Positions 47,652 through 49,713 of a stretch of 64,000 nucleotides of DNA are shown here, in pieces (the stretch's first letter is position 1; each line of letters starts with the position of its first letter). This stretch comes from Campylobacteraceae bacterium (lineage in GTDB: Bacteria; Campylobacterota; Campylobacteria; Campylobacterales; Arcobacteraceae). The notes below the pieces were generated by a model. That model did no database searches. It worked only from the letters and a program-made list of their open reading frames with translations, and was not told where the DNA came from. Location: NCBI GenBank assembly GCA_013215945.1, contig JABSOM010000002.1, positions 1 through 64,000 of the forward strand. The letters run 5' to 3'. Position numbers and translations under genes: made by a program.

Positions 47652-48164
47652 ATGGAAAAATACAGATTTGGAAACAACAAAAGAGCTAAGGACCATGGTC
47701 TTTTAATTTCTATTAAAAAAAGTATCAAAGCTGATTGCAAGAGAAATACTATTGAAAATGAAGAGTTTGCAAATGAAATCGGTACAACAAGTGGAGTGCT
47801 TTCAAATAAATTAAAAATGTCGAATCAGATAAATGCTATCTCTATTGAAGAATTTATTCATATTATGGAAATTACAGGAGATTATAGTCCCTTGAAATAT
47901 TTGGCAAGTATGTTTGATTTTGTAATTACATCAACTGAACCTCAATCACCAGGTGATGTTAGTAATTTAGGTGAATTGGCAGATAGTATGCAAATAGAAT
48001 CAAATGAAAGTTTTTCAGAAATTAAAAGAGCTATTAAAGATGGACAGATTACAGAAGAAGAAAAAACCAATATGTTAAAAGAAGTAGATGATTCAATCGA
48101 AGCTGCACTGCAAACAAAAAATGCAATTAGTTTAATCAAATCAGTAGAAATAACTAAGGATTAA
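47652..48164 (+). CDS. Phage CII-type regulatory protein
   Basis: A 170-residue protein that resembles the CII/CP76 regulatory family: EFANEIGTTSGVLSNKLKMS followed by ISIEEFIHIMEITGDYSPLKYLA. It begins 9 bp after the cro-like gene, behind AGGATAAG, and probably activates lysogeny genes. The C-terminal 60 residues form a helical tail. Confidence 0.75.
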   Translation: MEKYRFGNNKRAKDHGLLISIKKSIKADCKRNTIENEEFANEIGTTSGVLSNKLKMSNQINAISIEEFIHIMEITGDYSPLKYLASMFDFVITSTEPQSPGDVSNLGELADSMQIESNESFSEIKRAIKDGQITEEEKTNMLKEVDDSIEAALQTKNAISLIKSVEITKD

Positions 48165-48336: not shown

Positions 48337-48609
48337 ATGAAAAATATTACGTTTGCAAAGGCTTCTTTATTGAAAGCAGAGATTGTTGCTATTAAAAGAA
48401 AGTTGAGTGAGATTACAAAGTTTGGTGCATTTACTACTAATCATAAGAATCATAAAATAGTAATCCGTTCACATTCAAAAGAAACTGGTATTGAATTAGA
48501 GATTCAAGGTGTATTAACTTCAAAAGATACAGTTGAAGTATCTCAAGTAATCGAAAAACGATTAGTAAAAAGATTGAAAAAATTAAATAAAAAATTCAAA
48601 AAGCTATAG
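48337..48609 (+). CDS. Hypothetical early protein (90 aa)
   Basis: A 90-residue highly basic protein with a helical C-terminal tail rich in Lys, Arg and Leu (KRLVKRLKKLNKKFKKL). The charge suggests nucleic-acid binding. AAAAGGAAAGAA precedes the ATG. No family recognised. Confidence 0.62.
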   Translation: MKNITFAKASLLKAEIVAIKRKLSEITKFGAFTTNHKNHKIVIRSHSKETGIELEIQGVLTSKDTVEVSQVIEKRLVKRLKKLNKKFKKL

Positions 48610-48701
48610 AGGTATGTTACCGACATCAATGTCGGAGACATATTAATTCCATAGAGTAGTACATGTGAAAATTACTATTCTTAGAGTTAATTGTAGATAA
48701 A

Positions 48702-48733
48702 CAAGAGTTTGACTGTTCAAAATAAAACTCTTG
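48702..48733 (+). terminator. Stem-loop, possible terminator of the early regulator transcript
   Basis: CAAGAGTTT and its exact complement AAACTCTTG enclose a 14-nt loop and are followed by CTTTGTTT. It lies in the 360-bp non-coding stretch before the replication leader. An attenuator is also possible. Between it and the stem-loop below is a second small hairpin (48742-48756). Confidence 0.5.
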
Positions 48734-48790
48734 CTTTGTTTGCACTCGCGCTGTGCCCGATTAGTATATCTAAAAAGGCTAAACAAGTGT

Positions 48791-48867
48791 CTTTAATAAA
48801 CCAACTTACACTTTAATCCTCCCAAGATTAATGTTGGTTTGTTTATTAAGGCTTTATGTCTTGGGAG
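48791..48867 (+). promoter_or_regulatory. Structured leader RNA with predicted pseudoknot over a ribosome site
   Basis: The outer stem pairs 48791-48805 with 48833-48851, the right arm having four extra bases. An inner stem pairs TTAATC (48813-48818) with GATTAA (48826-48831), with loop CTCCCAA. The loop and next base, CTCCCAAG (48819-48826), are an exact 8-base complement of CTTGGGAG (48860-48867), which holds the ribosome site of the leader frame starting at 48875. Formation of this pseudoknot would hide that site. No U-tract follows, so a terminator is unlikely. Found by eye; no folding program was used. Confidence 0.7.
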
Positions 48868-48874
48868 ATATAAC

Positions 48875-48967
48875 ATGCAATGTAAAACAACTAAAAAGAA
48901 CACCACTACAAGAATAGTATTAATTGGTTATATAAATGGCTTTGAATTAGTAAAGATAAAGAGATAG
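48875..48967 (+). CDS. Leader peptide upstream of the replication gene (30 aa)
   Basis: A 30-codon frame with GGGAG seven bases before ATG: MQCKTTKKNTTTRIVLIGYI and ten further residues. Its TAG ends two bases before the ATG of the replication gene at 48970, which itself has only a weak ribosome site, so reading of the leader should drive the next gene. This matches the role of leader peptides in IncB/IncI-type plasmid replication control. Its own product may have no function. Confidence 0.6.
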   Translation: MQCKTTKKNTTTRIVLIGYINGFELVKIKR

Positions 48968-48969
48968 TT

Positions 48970-49713
48970 ATGAGTATCTCAATGATGACTAAAGTCTTTA
49001 AAGATTGTTCTTTGGAACCCAATAAGAAGCTTGTAATGCTTTCATTATCAGATAATGCTAATGATGAAGGATTTTGTTATCCATCATTAAATAATATTGT
49101 CTTGAAAACTTCTTTATCAAGAACTACTGTAATTAAACATTTAAAAGAATTAGAAATTAATCAAACCCTTCTATCTAAAAAAAGAAGCAGTTCAAAAGGT
49201 GGAAGAAATTCTACAATGTATATTATTTATCCATTAGAAAATATACCAAAATTAGACGAAGATATTTTAAAAAGATTTAATATTAAAATTAGCCAAGGTC
49301 AAAGGGTTGTACTACCCACCCAAAGTCAAGCAGCTGTACCACAAATGGGTACCCAAGGTCAAAGGGTTGTACCTAAACCATCACTTACTATATTTAACCA
49401 TCACTTATATAAAGAATTAGACAGTACTGAAAAAGAATTATATTTAGAATATTGTGCATTAAGAAAAAGCATGAAATTACAAACAACATATAAAATTCAT
49501 GAGAGATTACTAAATAAATATTTTGAATATGGAAGAGATAAAAATATTCTTAAAAATGCTATTAGTAGTAATTGGAAAGATTTATATAAACCTACAATAA
49601 ATTTTAAAAATTCTACTTTCACAGGTAATGCAACAATAGCAAAAGCAAATGAAATGTTCTCACAAATCAGACAAGAAGATGACACTATTTTTCAAGGAGA
49701 AATTCATGAGTAG
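48970..49713 (+). CDS. Phage replication protein with N-terminal helix-turn-helix
   Basis: A 247-residue protein. Residues about 15-75 form a winged helix-turn-helix of the kind at the start of phage and plasmid replication proteins (SLSDNANDEGFCYPSLNNIV, SRTTVIKHLKEL). The middle is a linker with two QGQRVV phrases; the end is helical. It is translated behind the leader peptide, and its stop overlaps the next ATG by 8 bp. It probably marks the origin or recruits host helicase; no helicase motifs are present in the window's early genes. Confidence 0.72.
   Translation: MSISMMTKVFKDCSLEPNKKLVMLSLSDNANDEGFCYPSLNNIVLKTSLSRTTVIKHLKELEINQTLLSKKRSSSKGGRNSTMYIIYPLENIPKLDEDILKRFNIKISQGQRVVLPTQSQAAVPQMGTQGQRVVPKPSLTIFNHHLYKELDSTEKELYLEYCALRKSMKLQTTYKIHERLLNKYFEYGRDKNILKNAISSNWKDLYKPTINFKNSTFTGNATIAKANEMFSQIRQEDDTIFQGEIHE

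Follow-up and report, generated by a model that had tools for sequence, protein, structure and literature searches.

A stable RNA hairpin upstream of a phage replication gene carries in its loop the exact complement of the ribosome-binding site of a short leader frame, which ends immediately before that gene. The arrangement recurs, with different letters, in related phage loci. The stretch probably encodes an antisense RNA module similar in its working to the c4 RNA of phage P1; it would repress the leader and the replication gene (rep), or in one relative (locus L003) an antirepressor gene (ant). The anatomy of the module and its complementarity are certain in the window, by which we mean the whole stretch of Campylobacteraceae DNA that was analysed (64,000 nucleotides). 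The features of the locus are as follows.

47652-48164: CII-like gene, upstream of the intergenic stretch
48337-48609: small gene between the CII-like gene and the intergenic stretch
48698..48741, + strand: hairpin 1 (AAACAAGAGTTT ... AAACTCTTG-CTTTGTTT), from inverted repeat I5 and a local fold
48742..48800, + strand: small hairpin GCAC...GTGC and conserved block CCGATTAGTATATCTAAAAAG...TCTTTAATAAA, from DNA matches, alignment and pattern search
48791..48851, + strand: antisense hairpin of 24 pairs, from folding (z -3.84)
48819..48827, + strand: antisense loop CTCCCAAGA, exact complement of 48859-48867
48859..48867, + strand: target TCTTGGGAG, the ribosome-binding site of the leader frame, from the sequence read, fold and duplex
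48875..48967, + strand: leader open reading frame MQCKTTKKNTTTRIVLIGYINGFELVKIKR, 30 codons, putatively translated, from its frame and position
48970..49713, + strand: O-like replication initiation protein, 247 aa, from PHROG and Pfam profile matches

The antisense hairpin (48791-48851) is a single interrupted stem of 24 pairs with small internal loops. The segment 48790-48875 folds with -21.9 kcal/mol, compared with -12.0 kcal/mol for shuffled sequences, a value equalled by none of 200 shuffles (z -3.84). For the longer region 48780-48980, which the initial annotation of this DNA had proposed folding, the fold as a whole is not better than that of shuffled sequences (z -0.71). The loop CTCCCAAGA, which consists of 7 loop bases and 2 from the closing stem, is complementary to TCTTGGGAG over 9 nt, where 8 had been noted initially, with a spacing of 31 nt and a calculated duplex energy of -14.0 kcal/mol. 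The target is 7 nt 5' of the leader ATG (48875) and 103 nt 5' of the rep ATG, and lies within a weak local hairpin that has UGGG in its loop. The sequence CTTGGGAG occurs only once on the + strand of the window. The leader runs from ATG at 48875 to TAG at 48965-48967, and is followed by 'tt' and then by the rep ATG at 48970. A 30-codon leader ending two bases before rep, as first described, is thus confirmed by the sequence read, and so is the weakness of rep's own ribosome site (AAAGAGATAGTT). The 247-aa Rep protein matches profiles PHROG 391 (E 1.7e-16), PHROG 678 (E 3.5e-16) and PHROG 8540, as well as Pfam HTH_36 (E 6e-9), and its PHROG matches place it among the O-like phage replication initiators. 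The leader frame has no known relatives and gave no match in a Pfam search. No canonical -10 box was found just upstream of the RNA module in the window.

A single-sequence search of viral and genome contigs gave no close protein relatives, and among annotated phages there was no match by Rep protein and no DNA match to the stretch apart from a separate 28-bp element. Relatives were obtained through whole-genome and alignment searches. Of 104 genomes from the same family, 11 have a recognisable Rep, the window's own among them. The closest is 59% identical and comes from another genus (genome G055, locus L003, also found on viral contig L038). In L003, loop TCCTTCAAAGAC is complementary over 12 nt to the site GTCTTTGAAGGA before the gene that precedes rep. 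This gene combines Phage_pRha and ANT antirepressor domains, and matches PHROG 63, 'anti-repressor Ant', with E 8e-50. A possible small inner hairpin lies beside the L003 loop. In L005 (G076), AGTTCCTT and AAGGAACT are complementary over 8 nt upstream of Rep, and in L127 (G254, from another family of the order, also represented by record L138) CCTCCTCAG and CTGAGGAGG are complementary over 9 nt, again upstream of Rep. In L317 (G082), GTTCCTTT pairs with AAAGGAAC over 8 nt, and the gene that follows is a different O-like initiator. Compensatory change, which had been suggested initially as a check, is therefore what these four related modules display: both sides differ and the pairing is retained.

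The L005 hairpin is also present in L006 (G022) and L317. In L006 the loop is retained, and the target is down to 5-6 pairs. Within the long stem shared by these three sequences, two pairs are altered on both sides with pairing retained, and 98.6% of cells are paired, compared with 25-46% when the partner is slid, although the shuffle control for this stem is not significant (69/500; n = 3 sequences). At 1470-1497 of L005, an alternative hairpin GGGTTA-CTGAAAGGAAC-TAACCC presents the ribosome site and shares an arm with the antisense hairpin; it could be a switch. A search with the pattern GTGYCYGATNAGTWTATC gave no phage modules beyond L003 and L038. One candidate, L045 (CCTTTTGG/CCAAAAGG), was dropped, since the near relative L044 does not retain the pairing, and matches in L289 and L132 were judged to be chance. 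On another phage contig (L046, 1630-1705), near a Rep relative, a hairpin loop GTCCAGACTC is complementary to a downstream sequence GAGTCTGGAC, which is not at a ribosome site.

The frequency of such arrangements was assessed with a mechanical search rule, namely a hairpin loop of at least 8 nt complementary to a Shine-Dalgarno (SD)-like site just before an ATG frame. A looser complementarity search had given dozens of AT-rich chance matches, and the rule was then tightened. Applied to both strands of the window, the strict rule gives one match, which is the module at 48791-48867. In 24 Campylobacterales Rep loci it gives four matches in the 900-nt stretches upstream of Rep (21.6 kb in all), and two, of which one (L123) is possibly real, in the other 140 kb of these loci. 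Dinucleotide-shuffled versions of the Rep upstream stretches gave none in 20 rounds. The rule was devised after the window and L003 had been seen, and these two are thus not independent, while L005 and L127 are. Chance complementarity beside an ordinary intergenic hairpin would draw on the facts that SD-complementary words are CU-rich, that short ones are common, and that loose searches yield many matches. However, with one strict match on the two strands of the window, none in the shuffles, and four matches at homologous places in relatives, the window pairing is unlikely to be accidental, and this explanation is strongly disfavoured, with very little probability left to it.

No further convincing example came from a search of some 40 Rha/ANT loci, which implies that the module is sparse; it is absent from these and from most Campylobacterales Rep loci. 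Where it recurs, the complementarity is kept, and this together with the enrichment at Rep loci means that control of rep through the hairpin and leader is well supported. Regulation of the leader and rep by the hairpin is likely, and to that extent the original suggestion of a hairpin switch for phage replication is supported. The L123 match lies on the minus strand (reverse-complement positions 207-325), with a perfect sigma-70 promoter (TTGACA, TATAAT) directly 5' of the hairpin. A CII-like gene follows, whose ribosome site CCCAAAAGG is complementary to the loop CCTTTTGGG over 9 nt. L123 is possibly another module of the same kind, controlling a regulator, and was left out of the module count.

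The route by which loop and target could meet was examined by geometry, using a rise of ~2.8 Å per pair and ~6 Å per linker base, with the loop held open. The window's constrained fold has 11 pairs and a 15-nt linker. Stems of 24 pairs in L005 and 25 pairs in L127 are followed by linkers of 3 nt and 6 nt, respectively; L003 combines 32 pairs with a linker of 2 nt (its lower part could open), and L123 combines 20 pairs with one of 0 nt. The linkers of L005, L127 and L003 are too short, so that within one molecule the target falls short of the loop as long as the stem is intact. The stems have energies of -14 to -36 kcal/mol, compared with -9 to -17 kcal/mol for the loop-target duplexes, and most of these RNAs are therefore unlikely to give up their stem. 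On this modelling, an intramolecular pseudoknot is possible in the window if the AU-rich lower stem opens, while pairing between separate molecules, or after processing, would be the simpler common model.

This bears on the mechanism proposed in the initial annotation, a pseudoknot formed in cis between the loop and the leader's ribosome site, which would be hidden by it. In a wider form of this idea the site might instead be opened, and an antisense RNA from the minus strand might adjust the switch, as happens in IncB/IncI plasmids. In ColIb-P9 and IncB the pseudoknot acts as an activator of rep translation, with the leader upstream; the I-complex pseudoknot leaves the first ribosome site uncovered. 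The window resembles the rep control of IncB, IncIalpha and IncL/M plasmids (RNAI, stem-loop I, repY leader and pseudoknot) in having a loop complementary to a downstream sequence, a small leader and a replication gene. It differs from the I-complex plasmids in what the pairing covers and in the opposite-strand RNA (PMC10724649): here the pairing site is the leader's own ribosome site, a repressive arrangement, and the relatives' stems are too long for their linkers. In the plasmids the activating pseudoknot lies just upstream of the rep ribosome site and its structure is opened by leader translation; in the window the 3' arm of the pairing is the leader's own SD, 103 nt 5' of the rep ATG. Minus-strand promoter-like sites across the stem-loop are not above those in shuffles, in consensus scans that are weak for these organisms. 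A pseudoknot would be consistent with the exact loop-target pairing within one RNA, with a leader coupled to the replication gene, and with the window linker of 7-15 nt, depending on stem opening. Set against these are the stems of L005, L127 and L003, the activating action of the plasmid pseudoknots, the promoter scan, and the fact that the L003 target is an antirepressor. We consider a pseudoknot rather unlikely overall: pairing would indeed cover the leader's ribosome site, as had been proposed, but the pseudoknot geometry is disfavoured in the relatives, and the likeness to IncB/IncI control is not supported.

A second arrangement in cis would be independent of the leader, with the antisense and target hairpins competing during transcription in the manner of an attenuator or RNA thermometer. 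The window target does sit in a small hairpin, and the alternative pairing GGGTTA...TAACCC around the SD is visible in L005. Nevertheless, the relatives' stable stems (-25 to -36 kcal/mol) would not yield to the much weaker loop-target duplexes, and no alternative pairing conserved across relatives was seen, which makes a switch of this sort highly improbable. Phage lambda provides a further comparison by position. Its OOP regulatory RNA, in the cII-O interval, is an antisense transcript of cII read from the opposite strand. A regulatory RNA between cII and O would be common to both systems, but no opposite-strand promoter or terminator was found at this locus.

The 5' side of the module is also shared between loci. 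The order in the window is hairpin 1, the small hairpin, GATTAGTATATC and then the antisense hairpin, and L003 has the same order. A counterpart of hairpin 1 occurs at the same place in L003, L005, L006 and L317. L005 and L317 share its loop CAAGCGACCAAAC but differ in its stem, and both have a TATAAC/TATAAT box a short distance 5' of the hairpin. The shared loop and box suggest that the RNA starts at hairpin 1, which is then possibly the 5' part of the RNA. The block at 48742..48800 is common to prophage L003 and to chromosomal copies in the same genus, with DNA matches of 86-88% over 49-70 nt in G087, G088 and the window's own contig C12. In at least two genomes the chromosomal block adjoins a glyoxalase-like and a metY-like gene, named from reading the proteins, without profiles. 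These copies have no recognised downstream target, and a search for their targets in the window gave none above chance. The intergenic chromosome of the same genus also contains a conserved element made up of a hairpin, CACATAAATGTG and GATNAGTATATC, with TATAAT-like boxes upstream in some copies. The copies are as follows.

L030, 1501-1599, - strand: chromosomal hairpin element
L015, 1508-1606, - strand: chromosomal hairpin element
L029: chromosomal hairpin element
L014, 1451-1549, + strand: chromosomal hairpin element

The element appears to be a host RNA gene akin to the phage RNA's 5' part.

The closest known system by its working is the c4 RNA of P1 and P7 (Rfam RF01695). In the annotated P1 record the order is promoter, a1/b1, c4 RNA (77 nt), a2, b2, icd and ant; b2 precedes icd by 10 nt, and the icd and ant frames overlap. 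P1 c4 is processed from a longer transcript by RNase P and is active in trans (Hartmann 1995, as cited in PMC5320573). Processing of c4, and chromosomal RNAs derived from it in Acinetobacter, have been described (PMC5320573), and c4 is listed in Proteobacteria and phages (PMC2864571). The modules described here share with c4 a stem-loop RNA upstream of its target on the same strand. The loop (b' in c4) complements the ribosome site of a short first frame to which the following gene is coupled, over 9 nt in the window and 12, 8, 9 and 8 nt in L003, L005, L127 and L317. The loop-to-target and target-to-start distances are similar (for the latter, 7 nt in the window and 10 nt for P1 b2), the putatively controlled gene in L003 is an antirepressor, which is the kind of gene that P1 c4 controls, and part of the RNA has stand-alone chromosomal copies, as has c4 in Acinetobacter (PMC5320573).

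The modules differ from c4 in their Campylobacterota hosts and in having no sequence or covariance-model match to it. The Rfam C4 model, which scores 68.8 bits on the P1 control, has no match at E<=10 in the window, L003, L005, L127 or L317, and none of 299 Campylobacterales genomes passes the model's cut-off; no Rfam match of value was obtained in the window or in the relatives' modules. There is a single antisense loop here, and the replication gene would in most cases be controlled directly. A second antisense segment a' was found neither in a repeat search of the window nor by inspection of L003. The P1/P2/P3 outer stem enclosing two hairpins (a three-way junction) was likewise not found, the window having its one interrupted stem. 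The module is therefore close to c4 by its working and fails by Rfam family membership.

In the c4-like reading, an early phage transcript would start near hairpin 1 and run through the antisense hairpin, leader frame and rep. The hairpin loop, cut out of the transcript or still part of another copy of it, would pair with the leader's ribosome site and block leader translation. Because the pairing covers the leader's ribosome site, repression is expected rather than activation. Rep would then go untranslated, with its own ribosome site weak and its start two bases past the leader stop, and the leader would be an icd-like link to rep. RNA made by the prophage would repress the prophage's own replication gene as well as the one carried by a related phage that enters the cell. 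We thus infer repression, trans action, processing, leader translation, coupling and immunity. The c4-like reading is supported by recurrence with changed letters and with different genes downstream (rep and ant), by the enrichment at Rep loci, by the stem retained in L005, L006 and L317, by the short linkers of L005, L127 and L003, and by the matching gene order in P1. Points that count against it are the Rfam C4 mismatch, the lack of an a' segment and three-way junction, the possible opening of the window stem for a pseudoknot, the reduced target in L006, the sparseness of the module, the lack of a canonical -10 box, and a leader without known relatives.

A broader proposal, put forward tentatively as one that may hold but that we would not yet back, is that Campylobacterota phages have a mosaic family of antisense 'immunity RNAs' of their own, without sequence relationship to c4. 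Taken together, the proposal has a cassette of hairpin and target placed before rep, leader-rep or ant, which acts in trans against incoming phages and has a 5' block shared with host RNA genes. To our knowledge, P1/P7 and their relatives are the main known cases of antisense control over phage immunity, and the literature searched describes no precedent for an RNA switch of this kind in Campylobacterota, in agreement with the initial annotation. Pairing kept while both sides change would show that this kind of control has originated or spread far outside the Rfam family. If so, antisense logic would directly control lytic replication and set which related phages exclude one another, and the loop letters would predict specificity groups.

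A further hairpin element (ATGTTACCGACATNNATGTCGGAGACAT) is contained in TATGTTACCGACATCAATGTCGGAGACATA at 48613-48642 of the window. It is present in 25 viral contigs in varied contexts, with the same small asymmetry in all of them, and matches at 27 of 28 positions in the Pasteurella phages Pmp12 and Pmp13.
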